NCBI RefSeq assembly: GCF_023111095.1
Contig: NZ_JALGYW010000015.1
Location: forward strand, 1-64,000
Direction: 5' to 3'
From: Maribellus sp. YY47
GTDB lineage: Bacteria > Bacteroidota > Bacteroidia > Bacteroidales > Prolixibacteraceae
DNA length: 64,000 bases
The notes beneath the pieces are model-generated. The model was given only the letters and a program-made list of their open reading frames with translations. It was not told where the DNA came from and ran no database searches. Both the position numbers and the translations under genes were made by a program. The number at the start of each line of letters is the position of its first letter. Within the stretch, counting starts at the first letter, position 1. Positions 21,510 to 31,279 of this stretch are shown here, piece by piece.

Positions 21510-22352
21510 TTACAAGGCAGCTTTTACGGTGTCGGCCAATGGTGTGGTGGGCCTTCCAATCAGCTTCGAAAGCTGTTTTGAATCGTCAAACAAATCGTTT
21601 TTAGAGGCCGATACATCCCAGCTGGCAATTGCATCGGCGTAAAATTCAGGAAGCCCGACGCTTTTTAGTATTTCGGCGTACTCGCTTTCCGCGAGGTTGT
21701 TGTACGGTATGTTTTTGCCGCTTTGTTTTGTGATTTCTGCGGCCAGGTCGTTTAAGGTATAACTTTCGTCGCCCGCCAACTCCAATAGCTCTCCTTTGTA
21801 GGTTTCGTTGGTTAATACAACGGCAGCTGCTTCGGCAAAGTCGGCACGTGAAGCTGAAGAGATTTTACCATCGCCGGCACTGCCCACAAATGCACCTGCA
21901 CCCAGAGCTCCCGGTATCGATCCGGTGTAATTTTCGGTGTACCATCCGTTACGCAGAATGGTATGGTCTACGCCCGAATTTTTCAATGCTGCTTCGGTTG
22001 CCCGGTGTTCGCCGGCCAAACTTAGCGACGAAGTGTCGGCGTGTAACAGACTGGTATAAACAATCCAGCTGACACCGGCTTTTTTCGCAGCCTCAATTAC
22101 ATTGCTGTGTTGGCGTTCGCGTTTCCCGATCTCGTTGGCTGAAATCAGCAGCAAACGATCAATTCCTTTCAATGCACCAACCAGTTGTTCGGGTTGGTCG
22201 TAATCAAAGGCGCGTGCTTCAATGCCCAGTTCCGCTGCTTTTTCGGGCGAGCGCACAAGGGCTACAATATTTTCTGAGTTCGTTTTTGCTTTTAGTTGTT
22301 CAACAACAAGTTGTCCCAATTGTCCTGTTGCTCCTGTTATTCCTATTTTCAT
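21510..22352 (-). CDS. qorB: NmrA-type NAD(P)H:quinone oxidoreductase (QorB-like)
   Basis: A 280-residue atypical short-chain dehydrogenase. IGITGATGQLGQLVVEQL is the Rossmann GxxGxxG, followed by AEKAAELGIEARAFDYDQPEQL and the TILRNGWYTENY substrate region of QorB. It should reduce quinones with NADPH in the cytosol. It is the last gene of the minus-strand series starting at 24437 (NTF2-like, YceI, DOPA dioxygenase, QorB) and a strong terminator follows, so it may share the Crp/Fnr-type promoter at 24463. Confidence 0.87.
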   Translation of the reverse strand: MKIGITGATGQLGQLVVEQLKAKTNSENIVALVRSPEKAAELGIEARAFDYDQPEQLVGALKGIDRLLLISANEIGKRERQHSNVIEAAKKAGVSWIVYTSLLHADTSSLSLAGEHRATEAALKNSGVDHTILRNGWYTENYTGSIPGALGAGAFVGSAGDGKISSASRADFAEAAAVVLTNETYKGELLELAGDESYTLNDLAAEITKQSGKNIPYNNLAESEYAEILKSVGLPEFYADAIASWDVSASKNDLFDDSKQLSKLIGRPTTPLADTVKAAL

Positions 22353-22456: not shown

Positions 22457-23341
22457 TTATCCGATTTTCACCGATGTCATGGTTAACGAGCCGCCAATGG
22501 GTTCGTCGTTAAAGATGTTTATTTCGTCTTTTTTGTCGTGTAACCCCAGTGCATAAAGTAGCGGCAAATAATGTTCGGGTGTTGGGATTGCCAGTGTAAA
22601 GGCCGAACCCAATTTTGAATAATTGATCAACTGCTGGTGATCTCCGTTCAGGATCAATTCTTTCATTTTGTTGTTTGCCTCGTTGGCCCAGTCGAAGCCA
22701 AAATTCTCATTCATTTTTCCCCAGTGTATCATGCGTAAATTGTGCACAATATTTCCGCTGCCCACCACTAAAATACCTTTTTCGCGTAATTGGCTCAGCT
22801 CCTGTGCCAGGGCATAATGTTCCTGCGGCGATTTCCGGTAGTCGAGGCTCAACTGAATCACCGGAATGTCGGCATCGGGGTACATGTGTCGGATCACCGA
22901 CCAGGCACCATGATCCAAACCCCATTTATCGTCTAAATGTACTTCTGTGGAATGAACCAGATCCTGTGTTGCTCTGGCCAGTTCAGGGCTACCCGGTGCC
23001 GGGTATTCAATTTCGTAAAGCGCCTTGGGGAAACCACCAAAATCGTGAATGGTTGGCGGGTGGGCCATGGCCGTTACCCGCGTTCCCTGTGTTTCCCAGT
23101 GCGCCGACACGACCACGATTGCCTTGGGTTTTTCAATTTCGGAAGAAATTTTTCGGAAGCCCTGTACAAATTCGTTTTCTTCAATGGCATTCATCGGACT
23201 CCCGTGCCCCAGAAAAAGCACCGGCATTTTAGGCGTGTTTTCCAGCGAATCTGCTATTTTATGTAATGCATTTAATTTCATTCCTGCAAAAGTTAGCGGC
23301 ACGGTGGCCATTACTGTTTGAATAAATTGTTTTCTTTCCAT
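22457..23341 (-). CDS. ygiD: 4,5-DOPA-extradiol-dioxygenase-like protein
   Basis: A 294-residue class III extradiol dioxygenase homologue. Metal-site motifs are FLGHGSPMNAI, VVVSAHWET and LDHGAWSVIRHMYP. It has an extra N-terminal segment (about 38 residues, MERKQFIQTVMATVPLTFAG) that looks like a signal or Tat-like leader, so it may be periplasmic, unlike E. coli YgiD. It would open aromatic rings of catechols or act on related compounds. Neighbours qorB and YceI support a quinone/catechol stress role (inference). Confidence 0.85.
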   Translation of the reverse strand: MERKQFIQTVMATVPLTFAGMKLNALHKIADSLENTPKMPVLFLGHGSPMNAIEENEFVQGFRKISSEIEKPKAIVVVSAHWETQGTRVTAMAHPPTIHDFGGFPKALYEIEYPAPGSPELARATQDLVHSTEVHLDDKWGLDHGAWSVIRHMYPDADIPVIQLSLDYRKSPQEHYALAQELSQLREKGILVVGSGNIVHNLRMIHWGKMNENFGFDWANEANNKMKELILNGDHQQLINYSKLGSAFTLAIPTPEHYLPLLYALGLHDKKDEINIFNDEPIGGSLTMTSVKIG

Positions 23342-23484: not shown

Positions 23485-24057
23485 TTATAGTACAAGAGAA
23501 ATGTCTAAGGTGAAGATGTCGTTGATCGCTTTGTCTCCCAGGTTATCGAAGAAGGAGTTGGATCCGTAACGTACATCGTATTTCGAACGGTCTACTTCTA
23601 CCAGCGCTTTATATATGTTGCCACTTTTCACCACGTCGAAAGTAATTTCTTCGGTACTTTTCTTAATGGTCAGTTTCCCGGTAACTTTAGCTTTCCCGTC
23701 TTCAAATTTGCTGGCTTTTGTTACTACAAATTTTGCTGTCGGGTATTTTTCAACACCAAAGAAATCGTCTGATTTTAAGTGGCCCACCAGTTTTTCGTTG
23801 TATCCCGGATCTTCAAGATCGGCATTGGTAATGGAATTCATGTCGATTACCACTTCGCCACCAACAATCTGATCGTTGTTAAATTCGAAATAACCGCCTT
23901 TCAACTGGATGGCTCCATTGTGCGAACCTCCGATTTTCTTACCGGTCCAGTTCACTGCCGATGTTTCTTTGTTTACTTCTTTTTTCTGTGCAAATGATGC
24001 TACACTTACTGCTAATACAAGCACTACTGCTAATCCTAACTTTTTCATTTTTTTCAT
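23485..24057 (-). CDS. Periplasmic YceI-family protein
   Basis: A 190-residue protein with signal peptide MKKMKKLGLAVVLVLAVSVASFA. The mature part is the YceI lipocalin-like barrel (SAVNWTGKKIGGSHNGAIQLKGG, SDDFFGVEKYPTAKF, GKLTIKKSTEEITFDV). YceI proteins bind polyisoprenoids such as ubiquinone precursors. It begins 2 bp after the NTF2-like gene, so it is co-transcribed from the promoter module at 24463. A second, leaderless YceI is at 26665. Confidence 0.88.
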   Translation of the reverse strand: MKKMKKLGLAVVLVLAVSVASFAQKKEVNKETSAVNWTGKKIGGSHNGAIQLKGGYFEFNNDQIVGGEVVIDMNSITNADLEDPGYNEKLVGHLKSDDFFGVEKYPTAKFVVTKASKFEDGKAKVTGKLTIKKSTEEITFDVVKSGNIYKALVEVDRSKYDVRYGSNSFFDNLGDKAINDIFTLDISLVL

Positions 24058-24059
24058 TT

Positions 24060-24437
24060 TTAATTGTTGTTATAAATTATTTCATTAACTATTTGTCCAT
24101 CGCAATTCCACTGTTGCGCTGCAAAGTGGCTGTATTTACAATTGCCCCATTCTTCATGGGTGTAATCGAACTCCCACTCAACCACCGATATTTTATCGGT
24201 AATAATTACATTTTTAAGGCGGGCAGTTCTAACTTCAGTAATGCCTGTAACCAATTTTTCTTCCTGTAACCGACAGGCATTTTTGCCTACAATTGCTGCC
24301 TTGTTATTTTCCTGCCGGATAATATCGTCGGCATAAAATTTTTCGAATGCTTCCAAAATATATCCATGAAGAATCATGTCGTTCAGTTTCGCTACCCGCT
24401 CCTGAAGTGATAATTTTTTTGGATCTATTTTTTGCAT
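24060..24437 (-). CDS. NTF2/SnoaL-like domain protein
   Basis: A 125-residue protein of the cone-shaped NTF2 fold: VAKLNDMILHGYILEAFEKFYADDI at the N-terminus, ITEVRTARLKNVIITDKISVVEWEFDY in the sheet. Such proteins bind small hydrophobic molecules or act as isomerases and lyases; the specific role is unknown. It is the first gene after the promoter with paired FNR-like boxes and ends 2 bp before yceI. Confidence 0.78.
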   Translation of the reverse strand: MQKIDPKKLSLQERVAKLNDMILHGYILEAFEKFYADDIIRQENNKAAIVGKNACRLQEEKLVTGITEVRTARLKNVIITDKISVVEWEFDYTHEEWGNCKYSHFAAQQWNCDGQIVNEIIYNNN

Positions 24438-24462: not shown

Positions 24463-24531
24463 CAAAGGTAGAGGACGAGTAAGTCTTCTACACTTGACCT
24501 AGGTTAAGAAATGAACTTGATCTAGGTTAAG
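24463..24531 (-). promoter_or_regulatory. Promoter with two tandem Crp/Fnr-type boxes (copy 1)
   Basis: On the minus strand TACCTTTG (24470-24463) is a TAnnTTTG -7 element 26 bases before the ATG at 24437. Upstream lie two near-palindromes, CTTGACCTAGGTTAAG (24493-24508) and CTTGATCTAGGTTAAG (24516-24531), each with a TTGAY-N4-GTTAA core, 23 bp apart. From the estimated start the box centres fall near -43 and -66, typical activator positions. No TTG -33 element is present, as expected for an activator-dependent promoter. A homologous copy is at 27532-27600. Confidence 0.75.
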
Positions 24532-26153: not shown

Positions 26154-26384
26154 TTATTTTTTGTCGTTGTAATAATATGACAATGCTCCGGACGGGCACT
26201 TTTCAACGGTAGAGATTATCGCTGAAGTTGGGGCTTTGTCCATTTTTATCCAGGGGCGTTCTCCGGGATTGAAAACGGCTAATAAATTTCGAAAACAGTT
26301 GCCCGAGTGAATACATTTGCCCGATTTCCACACAACGGTGATCTCGTCGTTGGAATATTCTTTTGTGACTTTTTTTATATCCAT
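26154..26384 (-). CDS. (4Fe-4S) mono-cluster protein (YjdI-like)
   Basis: A 76-residue protein with the divergent single-cluster domain: VVWKSGKCIHSGNCFRNLLAVFNPGERPWI followed by VEKCPSGALSYYY. The KC-x5-C and CPSGAL cysteines bind the cluster. Such proteins are small electron carriers or redox switches of unknown partner, often next to acetyltransferases or stress genes. Nearby YceI and Crp/Fnr genes suggest a redox-stress setting. Confidence 0.85.
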   Translation of the reverse strand: MDIKKVTKEYSNDEITVVWKSGKCIHSGNCFRNLLAVFNPGERPWIKMDKAPTSAIISTVEKCPSGALSYYYNDKK

Positions 26385-26664: not shown

Positions 26665-27198
26665 TCAAGACTGCTTTGCGAATTGTATTTCTGCGGCGAT
26701 TTTTACTTCTTCGCCTACCAGTACACCGCCTGTTTCCAGTGCTGCGTTCCAGTTTAAGCCCCAGTCTTTGCGGTTAAATTTTCCGCTTACCGAAAAACCG
26801 GCTTTTTCATTTCCCCATGGATCTTTGCTGGTACCACCGTATTCAACGTTTAACGTAACCTCTTTACTTATACCTTTAATGGTGAGCAGTCCTTTCAGTT
26901 CGTATTCATCATCGTCAGTTTTTGTGAACGACGTGCTTTTGAACGTCAGTTCTTTGTAGTTTTCTGCATCAAAGAAATCGGCTGATTTAAGATGTCCGTC
27001 TCGTTGTTGGTCGTTGGTGCTGATTGACGATACATCCACTGCAACGCTGAGCGCTGAGTTAAAAATATCATCTCCGTCAACCTCTACCGAGAAACTTTTG
27101 AATTCACCTTTCACATTCGAAATCATCAGGTGTTTTACCTTAAATGTTAGTTCACTGTGTGCTGGATCTAATGTCCAGGTTGTTGCTTTTGTTGTCAT
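26665..27198 (-). CDS. YceI-family protein without leader
   Basis: A 177-residue YceI-like barrel: TTWTLDPAHSELTFKVKHLMISNVKGEF, SADFFDAENYKELTFKST, GLLTIKGISKEVTLNVEY and FNRKDWGLNWNAALETGGVLVGEEVKI. It lacks a signal peptide, so unlike the copy at 23485 it should stay in the cytosol and may use its hydrophobic pocket for a soluble isoprenoid or fatty molecule. A TATTTTTG element at 27312-27305 is a possible own promoter; the FNR-box module lies further upstream. Confidence 0.87.
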   Translation of the reverse strand: MTTKATTWTLDPAHSELTFKVKHLMISNVKGEFKSFSVEVDGDDIFNSALSVAVDVSSISTNDQQRDGHLKSADFFDAENYKELTFKSTSFTKTDDDEYELKGLLTIKGISKEVTLNVEYGGTSKDPWGNEKAGFSVSGKFNRKDWGLNWNAALETGGVLVGEEVKIAAEIQFAKQS

Positions 27199-27304: not shown

Positions 27305-27312
27305 CAAAAATA
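27305..27312 (-). promoter_or_regulatory. Possible -7 element for the leaderless yceI gene
   Basis: CAAAAATA on the plus strand reads TATTTTTG on the minus strand, matching TAnnTTTG, about 107 bases upstream of the ATG at 27198. Confidence 0.35.
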
Positions 27313-27531
27313 GAACGTACGATTTTCCTAAAAAATAAACAAGTTTAACAAATAAATAGTTTGCCGGTCGAAATGCCGAATTGACTCTTTAAAAGAATGT
27401 TATCGGTTTTGAGAATTGTAAATAAGCCATGCGTTCCGTTTTTTTCTGGTGTAAGATTATTGAGCTAATCCGATTTGTTTCATGAAATCCTGACAATGTT
27501 TTCATAATGTTCATTTTTTAATTTGATGATT

Positions 27532-27600
27532 CAAAGGTAGGGGACAGGCAGGTCTTGCACACTTTTCCTGTGTTAAGAAATGAACTTGATGTAGGTTAAG
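27532..27600 (-). promoter_or_regulatory. Promoter with two tandem Crp/Fnr-type boxes (copy 2)
   Basis: Same layout as 24463-24531 without gaps: -7 element TACCTTTG (27539-27532), then CTTTTCCTGTGTTAAG (27562-27577, left half decayed) and CTTGATGTAGGTTAAG (27585-27600). By hand 57 of 69 positions match copy 1. It lies just downstream of the Crp/Fnr gene stop and points away from it, toward yceI (ATG at 27198) about 330 bases on. A 41-codon frame (27514-27389) directly follows the -7 element. Confidence 0.65.
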
Positions 27601-27651: not shown

Positions 27652-28236
27652 TTAGGCTTTTTTTCGGATGCGGCTGAGACTCTCGGGCGTGATCCCGAGG
27701 TAGGAGGCAATGTACACCAACGGAACCCGTTGGAATACGTCAGGATGTTCTTTAAGCAAGCTGTTGTAACGGTCAACGGCCGATTCCCACATAGTGGAAT
27801 TCAGGCGTTCGAGGGCATTGATGTAGGCCTTTTGAAAAAGGATGCGAAAGTAGCGTTCGACTGCAGGAACTTCGCGGTACAGTTGCTCCAGCCGGTCGAA
27901 TGAGATGCGCAACAGTTCAGAGTCTTCCAGCGTTTCGATGTAATATTTCGACGGACGTTGTGAAAAAAAACTTTCCAGGTCGCTGATCCAGCTGTTGTTT
28001 AAACGGATTTGATAAATGTGCTCAATGCCTTTTGCATCAACATAATACGAGCGCAGACAACCCACCTTAACAAAATAAATGTATTTGCACACTTCATTTG
28101 GTTCCAGCAGGTCCTTTTTCTTTTTGGCCGAAACCGGTTCGAAAGCTGAAAGAATGAGTTCTTCATCTCCTTCGGAAATGTGTGTCCATTTTTTTAGGTA
28201 GTAGATGAGTTTATGCTCTTCGTTCATCGGTTTCAT
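27652..28236 (-). CDS. Crp/Fnr-family transcription regulator
   Basis: A 194-residue regulator. The cyclic-nucleotide-like barrel covers residues about 20-120 (LLEPNEVCKYIYFVKVGCLRSYYV, NNSWISDLESFFSQRPS), then a long helix and a short HTH at the C-terminus (VPLVYIASYLGITPESLSRIRKKA). The recognition helix carries E185-x-x-S188-R189, the same contacts that make FNR read TTGA half-sites. No N-terminal cysteine cluster, so it is not an oxygen-sensing FNR. Its own TTG-N20-TAAGTTTG promoter is just upstream. Probable regulator of the boxes at 24493-24531 and 27562-27600 (inference). Confidence 0.88.
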   Translation of the reverse strand: MKPMNEEHKLIYYLKKWTHISEGDEELILSAFEPVSAKKKKDLLEPNEVCKYIYFVKVGCLRSYYVDAKGIEHIYQIRLNNSWISDLESFFSQRPSKYYIETLEDSELLRISFDRLEQLYREVPAVERYFRILFQKAYINALERLNSTMWESAVDRYNSLLKEHPDVFQRVPLVYIASYLGITPESLSRIRKKA

Positions 28237-29857: not shown

Positions 29858-31279
29858 TTACATGCTCTTGATCTCGCTTACGAGTTTGGTCATGGTACCT
29901 TTAGCATCGCCAAAAAGCATGCGGGTTTTGTCGTTAAAGAACAGGAAGTTCTCGATACCGGCATAACCTTTACCCATACCACGTTTCATGATAATGATGT
30001 TTTTGGCCAAGTGCGCATCGATAATCGGCATACCGTAAATCGGGCTGCCCGGGTCGTCATAAGCCGCAGGGTTCACCACGTCGTTGGCGCCCACCACAAT
30101 GGCCACGTCAACGTTGGGCATATCCGGATTAATGTCGTCCATTTCCACCAGTTGTTCGTATGGAACATCGGCTTCGGCCAGCAATACGTTCATATGACCG
30201 GGCATACGGCCAGCTACCGGGTGAATGGCGTATTTTACTTCAACGCCCTTACTCCCAAGCAGCGAATCCAGCTCGTGTGCAATGTGCTGTGCCTGGGCTA
30301 CGGCCAAACCGTATCCCGGAATGATTACCACTTTTTGCGAGTAGCTTAGCAAAACAGCGGCATCGCTTAAGGTAATTTCCTTGATACTGCCCTGTACATC
30401 GGCATGGCTGGCTCCACCACCGCCAAACGATCCGATAATTACATTGATCAGTGAACGGTTCATCGCTTTACACATTTGAAGCGTTAAAATGGTTCCGGCA
30501 GCGCCTACCAAAATACCGCCCAAAATCATGGCTTCGTTCTGGTAAATAAAACCGGCCATGGCAGCTGCAATACCTGTCAGTGAGTTCAGCAGCGAAATAA
30601 CTACCGGCATATCGGCTCCGCCAATTGGCATTACAAAACTTACACCGTAAACCAAACTCAAAACCAGCAATCCGTAAACCAGGTAAGTCCGGCTTTGTAC
30701 GTCGAAACCTCCGAACAATACCAGCAGGATGACGATAACAATCACCGCCATAAATATCAGGTTGACATAGGTCATTACTTTGGAGAAAATGTCTCCGACT
30801 TTGCCGTCGAGTTTTCCGTAGGCGATCATACTACCACTGAATGCGATACTACCTACAACCAGTCCGAGCAAACCAACCAGCACTGCCTGGCCCGGGTTTT
30901 TGATGTATTCAATCAGGGCAACGGCAGCAGAGGCGGCACCTCCGGTTGCGTTAAAGAATGACACCATTTGAGGCATGGCTGTCATTTTCACCTTGCGGGC
31001 CATTATCGCTCCCACCACTGTACCGGCAGAAATAATCAGCAAAATAGCGATCACATTCACCAACCCGATTCCTTCGCCTTCTCCATTTCTGTTGAGGATA
31101 AGTGTGGTGATCATCGGCAGGATCATGCCCGAAGCTGCCCAGAAGTTTCCTTTGCGCGCTGTTTCCGGGTGGCTCTGAAGCTTCAGCCCGATTACAAACA
31201 TGATGGCAGAAAGAAGATAACTGTATTCCAGAACAACTTGTCCCGGCATTAATGTATTGAGTAAAATCATAGCGTTCAT
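29858..31279 (-). CDS. pntB: NAD(P) transhydrogenase, beta subunit
   Basis: A 473-residue subunit: about nine hydrophobic helices to residue 270 (domain II), then the NADP(H)-binding domain III with IIPGYGLAVAQAQHIAHEL, HPVAGRMPGHMNVLLAEADVPY, VGANDVVNPAA, GMPIIDAHLAKNI and KRGMGKGYAGIENFLFF. With PntA it moves hydride from NADH to NADP coupled to proton flow. It starts 2 bp after the pntAB gene. Three separate genes match the split enzyme type found in many Bacteroidota and Alphaproteobacteria. Confidence 0.95.
   Translation of the reverse strand: MNAMILLNTLMPGQVVLEYSYLLSAIMFVIGLKLQSHPETARKGNFWAASGMILPMITTLILNRNGEGEGIGLVNVIAILLIISAGTVVGAIMARKVKMTAMPQMVSFFNATGGAASAAVALIEYIKNPGQAVLVGLLGLVVGSIAFSGSMIAYGKLDGKVGDIFSKVMTYVNLIFMAVIVIVILLVLFGGFDVQSRTYLVYGLLVLSLVYGVSFVMPIGGADMPVVISLLNSLTGIAAAMAGFIYQNEAMILGGILVGAAGTILTLQMCKAMNRSLINVIIGSFGGGGASHADVQGSIKEITLSDAAVLLSYSQKVVIIPGYGLAVAQAQHIAHELDSLLGSKGVEVKYAIHPVAGRMPGHMNVLLAEADVPYEQLVEMDDINPDMPNVDVAIVVGANDVVNPAAYDDPGSPIYGMPIIDAHLAKNIIIMKRGMGKGYAGIENFLFFNDKTRMLFGDAKGTMTKLVSEIKSM

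Follow-up and report, generated by a model that had tools for sequence, protein, structure and literature searches.

Paired FNR-like boxes as putative operators of an adjacent Crp/Fnr-type regulator in Maribellus sp. YY47

Introduction

FNR and DNR recognize 14-bp boxes of the TTGAY-N4 type, and the recognition helix of FNR carries the motif E-x-x-S-R. NssR of Campylobacter jejuni is a positive regulator of the globin gene cgb under nitrosative stress and has the operator TTAACnnnnGTTAA (PMC1274295, part on NssR). HcpR1 of Desulfuromonas and Geobacter has the operator wyTTGACnnnnGTCAArw and controls hcp and frdX (PMC1274295 and PMC545781, parts on HcpR), while the motif given for HcpR2 of Bacteroides and others is GTAACnnnnGTTAC (PMC1274295, same part). 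In the part of PMC1274295 that treats recognition residues, the amino acids at CRP positions 180 and 181 are described to correlate with operator bases. From Firmicutes, quinone and catechol detoxification sets have been described that combine ring-cleaving dioxygenases with reductases and are under the control of repressors such as MhqR (PMC6798810, in part).

Here, a stretch of 64,000 nt from Maribellus sp. YY47 (contig NZ_JALGYW010000015.1, positions 1 to 64,000; "the window") was analyzed. A sequence-only reading had pointed to paired FNR-like boxes at an activator-dependent promoter, to a duplicate of this module beside a Crp/Fnr gene, and to a regulon with a specific operator.

Results

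The box pair and its promoter. The two near-palindromic TTGAY-N4-GTTAA boxes of the sequence-only reading are present at 24463-24531, 23 bp apart from start to start. All elements lie on the minus strand, and on the gene strand the distal box is followed by a 7-bp spacer, the proximal box, a further 22 bp and TACCTTTG. The distal box (24516-24531) is CTTGATCTAGGTTAAG, on the gene strand CTTAACCTAGATCAAG, and the proximal box (24493-24508) is CTTGACCTAGGTTAAG, on the gene strand CTTAACCTAGGTCAAG. The spacer (24509-24515) reads TTCATTT on the gene strand and is itself conserved. The −7 element (24463-24470) matches TAnnTTTG, and the absence of a −33 element, also claimed before, was borne out for this promoter. 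We placed the predicted transcription start 4 nt beyond TAnnTTTG, which we take to be the convention. With this start the boxes are centred at about −41.5 and −64.5, so that the activator-like positions of the earlier reading stand, whereas its values of −43 and −66 do not. A centre at −41.5 is the class II position, and boxes upstream of about −34 are usual for Crp/Fnr activators. The distance from the start of the proximal box to the start of the −7 element is 38 nt, which would correspond to class II under the assumed start site. A search with the box consensus at up to three mismatches gave 6 strand-hits in the window versus 0.51 expected, and 0 of 100 shuffles reached 6; two of the 6 come from reading the same boxes in reverse, and one is a 3-mismatch site at 29867.

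The second copy. The 69-bp module recurs at 27532-27600 with 57 of 69 bases identical and without gaps, as had been stated, and the next best matches of 24463-24531 in the window are far lower (34/69 on the same strand, 35/69 on the other). The claim that the box pair is duplicated holds for one box and fails for the other. The distal box (27585-27600, minus strand) is intact and lies 51 bp from the stop codon of the regulator gene, whereas the proximal box (27562-27577) is damaged and reads CTTTTCCTGTGTTAAG, on the gene strand CTTAACACAGGAAAAG. The −7 element (27532-27539) is again TACCTTTG. By its bases, the second copy looks half decayed. A second yceI gene (26665-27198, minus strand) lies 333 bp downstream, and its N-terminus does not resemble a signal peptide by eye. 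Control of this gene by the second copy is uncertain. Between the two lies an extra TAnnTTTG at 27305-27312 (minus strand), which is a possible independent promoter and may be the real promoter of the second yceI gene. In addition, a 41-aa open reading frame follows the second promoter copy at 27389-27514.

The regulator and the neighbouring genes. The regulator gene (27652-28236) encodes a Crp/Fnr-type protein of 194 aa. On the minus strand it is followed by the second copy, the second yceI gene, an M20-type peptidase gene, the first module, and a predicted target operon. The operon consists of a snoaL-like gene (24060-24437; Pfam matches below the curated cut-off), yceI (23485-24057; N-terminus resembling a signal peptide by eye), a ygiD-like gene for a LigB-family extradiol dioxygenase (22457-23341) and a gene for an NmrA/NAD(P)H-binding oxidoreductase (21510-22352), all on the minus strand. 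A 76-aa open reading frame with three cysteines at 26154-26384 perhaps encodes a small iron-sulphur protein, judged by eye.

The sensor domain of the regulator is of the cNMP-binding type (PF00027, 39.5 bits versus a cut-off of 27.5), and the genome contains 12 matches to this domain, 11 of them above the cut-off. None of the Pfam HTH models matched the regulator at E ≤ 0.01. The proposed recognition helix was found as E185-x-x-S188-R189, with C50 and C60 as the sole cysteines, and the segment TPESLSRIR is invariant across 15 aligned sequences. Membership in FNR itself was rejected, with two cysteines and 22.4 bits to the NCBIfam Fnr model at a cut-off of 228. The NCBIfam CRP model, at 20.4 versus 266 bits, also stayed below its cut-off. 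In contrast to FNR, the four-cysteine set is absent and the right half of the box is GTTAA and not ATCAA. The nearest solved sequence is PDB 3dn7, a cyclic nucleotide binding regulatory protein (148 bits, query residues 9-193), which has S-E in the recognition helix where the window regulator has S-R. A paralogue from the same genome as the window, a 189-aa regulator (L024, contig C3 of G000), has the perfect palindrome CTTGATTTGAATCAAG 5 bp past its stop codon.

HcpR1 resembles the window regulator in its FNR-like motif, in having Ser or Pro where CRP has R180 and in the lack of the FNR cysteine motif (PMC1274295 and PMC545781, parts on HcpR). None of nine scanned window proteins is Hcp or FrdX. 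NssR shares the Crp/Fnr family and the half-site TTAAC with a 4-base core, and differs in having A180/Q181 where the window regulator has P184/E185 (PMC1274295, part on NssR). A further contrast is that the window promoter, which is of the Bacteroidota type, has a pair of boxes with a 23-bp spacing. The NssR-type site TTAAC-N4-GTTAA occurs in full in loci L158 and L167, and half-sites of both kinds, TTAAC and TTGAC, were found. As judged from the bases, the putative operator class TTAAC/TTGAC-N4-GTYAA is close to the published FNR-like HcpR1 and NssR sites, and P184/E185 are compatible with the correlation for CRP positions 180/181 (PMC1274295, parts on these regulators).

Comparison within the genus and the order. 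Altogether 61 genomes were searched, 37 of which, including the genome under study, belong to the same genus. An orthologue of the regulator (at least 71% identity) was found in 12 of these 37. The pattern proximal box-N22-TAnnTTTG, at up to three mismatches, was present in all 12 orthologue genomes, at 16 sites, and the backward pattern gave 4 hits in these 12. The pattern was also run on 15 of the 25 same-genus genomes without an orthologue and matched in 2 of the 15, both times at three mismatches (a remnant in G024, and G016). In G016 the match (C175:853-898, L284) is found 38 bp past the aligned portion of a homologue with 37% identity. The box pair at up to two mismatches was found in 11 of the 12 orthologue genomes versus 1 of the 25 others (the G024 remnant); in the twelfth orthologue genome, G009, the distal box has decayed. 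At three mismatches four more of the 25 match, including a remnant in G030, and at up to three mismatches the backward control gave 13 hits in the 37 genomes.

In the 11 orthologue regions that were fetched, the module sits between the regulator and the target genes, and in 8 of the 11 it precedes snoaL-yceI-ygiD-nmrA. These 8 include L095, in which nmrA is split over two frames, and L097, in which the distal box has decayed. Of the four operon genes, snoaL is missing in L100, and in L096 and L098 the boxes are kept, yet only nmrA was detected. The remnants in G024 and G030 (L101 and L102) consist of C-terminal regulator fragments with one and two stops inside the match, a partial yceI gene and altered boxes. 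While snoaL was not detected at these two loci, the matches to ygiD and nmrA are full-length. Regulator and boxes thus appear to have decayed jointly in G024 and G030. A second operon with the box pair, snoaL-yceI-doxX, is not linked to the regulator gene and was found only in G005, G008 and G034 of the 37 genomes, all three carriers of the orthologue (presence scored by yceI at E ≤ 1e-60; Pfam run on the G008 copy).

Alignment of 26 related modules on their boxes gave top-base fractions of 0.81 for the distal box, 0.85 for the spacer, 0.92 for the proximal box, 0.62 for the linker, 0.86 for the −7 element and 0.39 for the upstream region. Outside the genus, orthologues with about 70-77% identity exist in another genus of the same family and in two further families of the order, and the pair is present at their loci (one mismatch in L123, none in L113, three in L126). 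An order-wide search for the pair at up to three mismatches matched 17 of 393 genomes, and the backward control was comparable in number. Besides the genome under study, four of the matched loci (L113, L114, L123 and L126) contain a regulator homologue; the remaining matches are 3-mismatch hits with no regulator homologue in the locus. Taken together, the co-occurrence with the orthologue, the joint decay in two genomes and the fixed geometry support a link between operator and regulator, which is strong on comparative grounds.

Size of the regulon. The operator proposed by the sequence-only reading could be tied to the regulator by comparison, whereas the regulon it envisaged shrinks to 1-2 fitting promoters per genome. 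The genome-wide search it had suggested did not yield further copies above chance in this genome. At up to two mismatches the box gave 6 strand-hits, 4 of them from the three boxes described above, versus 8 for the pattern read backwards, and a wide regulon was therefore rejected for this genome. A single box is not specific, as it occurs at up to two mismatches in 42 of the 61 genomes and the backward pattern is usually commoner. On this basis the module is read as a small local regulon.

The layout behind the stop codons of homologues. Named genomes of Bacteroidota and their kin were scanned at the best 80 of at least 581 homologue loci, which include Draconibacterium, Petrimonas, Marinilabilia, Algoriphagus, Mucilaginibacter, Flavobacterium, Chryseobacterium and two Ignavibacteria records. 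The pattern was first noticed in these same 80 loci and then counted in them, and the loci are mutually related; all counts below for the best 80 of at least 581 are to be read with this limit. A strict symmetric box within 150 bp past the stop codon was found in 22/80 loci versus 8/5401 control tiles, and a box with at most one mismatch in 37/80 versus 110/5401. Upstream of the regulator gene the corresponding numbers are 0/77 and 2/77, and 35/80 homologues have no box with at most one mismatch between −20 and +200.

For 54 boxes in 45 loci, a second box at up to three mismatches was found 33 times at a spacing of 23 bp, followed by 11 times at 10 bp, with a mean of 1.66. An exact TAnnTTTG occurred 27 times at +37/38 or +60/61 from the box and twice elsewhere in these 45 loci. 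The joint layout of boxes and promoter was present in 34/80 loci versus 11/9344 control windows. In these 34 modules the spacer ends in ATTT 5′ of the proximal box, with base fractions of 0.74, 1.00, 1.00 and 0.97 at positions that were not selected for; the ATTT is possibly a contact site for the alpha subunit of the polymerase or part of a longer operator. Among far modules, the proximal box ends in TTG, at the place expected for a −33 element, in 12/30 cases; this TTG is absent from the window promoter.

A second sample of 27 loci had the box in 13/27 versus 117/8151 controls, and the strict joint layout, much weaker than the box, in 4/27 versus 2/633. It contains near-copies (L298/L302 and L308/L309 share C-termini), so that 27 overstates its size. 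Another 39 homologues from six genomes, five of the same genus and one of the same order, had TTRA-N6-TYAA near the stop codon in 8/39 cases. By these counts, the layout is widespread but not universal, and it does not characterize the family as a whole. A literature search with narrow terms in open-licence papers did not find it described, which is weak evidence of absence.

A helix-operator code, in which an R closing the helix (the position that corresponds to CRP R185) would go with TTGA half-sites, was also considered and did not replicate. The association table was 18/2/1/20 in 41 loci and 27/2/1/21 in 51 loci. On the tree the number of independent pairs, 3 with branch support and 8 when all branches are counted, was too small for significance. 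The second sample gave 6/2/2/3 (p 0.29; hand count, L311 as R). Counter-examples are L176, L293 and L310, which lack R and have TTGA, and L158, L167, L300 and L311, which have R and TTAA only.

Target genes and possible signal. The first downstream gene, available for 68 of the best 80 of at least 581 loci, belonged to SnoaL 7 times, DoxX 7 times, LigB 6 times, YceI 4 times, and to the old-yellow-enzyme type, NmrA and pirin 3 times each. Second downstream genes (n=32) were of the old-yellow-enzyme type in 5 cases and of the YceI, NmrA and DoxX families in 4 cases each. Upstream of the regulator each of these families occurs at most once among 76 genes, and none is in the top 25 by count. DoxX belongs in the quinone and catechol detoxification sets of Firmicutes. 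The target gene mix resembles these sets and may point to electrophiles as the signal, for instance reactive aromatic or quinone-like compounds. The comparison is a functional analogy only: the Firmicutes quinone-stress regulons of MhqR, QsrR and YodB have a comparable gene flavour, whereas their regulators are MarR-type and their operators unrelated to the window boxes (PMC6798810, in part).

Discussion

We propose, with a probability of about 0.7, that the tandem boxes are operators of the adjacent 194-aa Crp/Fnr-type regulator, which would activate snoaL-yceI-ygiD-nmrA from about −41.5 and −64.5. Dimers of the regulator would occupy both boxes, at about −64.5 on the distal box and at about −41.5 on the proximal one, the latter in a class II arrangement beside the would-be −33 element. 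Lacking a −33 element, the TAnnTTTG promoter would depend on such an activator. The ancestral operator site would be directly past the stop codon of the regulator gene. The module is present twice, and we infer a duplication history that has left a half-decayed copy at the regulator and, at a distance of 3 kb, an intact copy that accompanies the operon. The regulator gene itself has no close match to the box upstream and is probably not autoregulated.

Activation is the likely direction of control. The same regulator might instead bind as a repressor and induce the operon upon ligand release, as MarR-type quinone sensors do. MhqR and other repressors control similar detoxification sets in Firmicutes (PMC6798810, in part), and the proximal box abuts the −33 region. 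Repression is nevertheless unlikely: both boxes lie upstream of about −34, as is usual for Crp/Fnr activators, the spacing to TAnnTTTG is nearly constant, and the window promoter has no −33 element. A further alternative is that the boxes are bound by a different Crp/Fnr paralogue of the genome, the adjacent regulator gene being incidental. The 12 cNMP-binding-domain matches in the genome and the similarity of recognition helices in the family would allow this. Against it, the promoters track the orthologue of the adjacent regulator and decay with it, and the palindrome that follows the stop codon of the paralogue L024 is a different one, CTTGATTTGAATCAAG; we regard a paralogue as improbable.

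Many homologues have the repeat within a few bases of the stop codon, and the inverted repeats could therefore act downstream of the regulator gene as a transcription terminator or an RNA element. When four stretches were folded, L104 indeed came out better than most shuffles (z −2.31), whereas the other three are near theirs (z −1.34, 0.59 and 0.35), no T run is seen by eye behind the repeats, and the module keeps its geometry when it is kilobases away from the regulator or unlinked. This explanation is disfavoured and seems very remote. A different matter is whether the 69-bp identity reflects just a segmental duplication that has left the second copy at 27532-27600 inert, which would be compatible with operator function of the first copy. 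The damaged proximal box and the nearer TAnnTTTG in front of yceI speak for an inert copy, while the persistence of its distal box and −7 element and the drop of identity outside the module (13/20 on one side, 8/20 on the other) speak against it. We give inertness of the second copy a little less than an even chance.

Operator function of the box pair at 24463-24531 would involve a regulator and an operator of known types, but in an arrangement of unusual regularity, which was not found described in the narrow literature search. The evidence is balanced on whether a large group of short Crp/Fnr-type regulators of Bacteroidota form self-contained units of one regulator and one operon, in which the regulator would act via tandem operators (23-bp spacing, ATTT, fixed distance to the −7 element) on electrophile or quinone detoxification genes. 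We know of no operator or signal for most of these regulators. If the proposal is true, operator and target of many uncharacterized regulators could be read from the DNA past their stop codons, and such a rigid layout would give testable triples of regulator, operator and target. Bacteroidota, with promoters unlike those of the E. coli type, would also gain a defined activator promoter from it.
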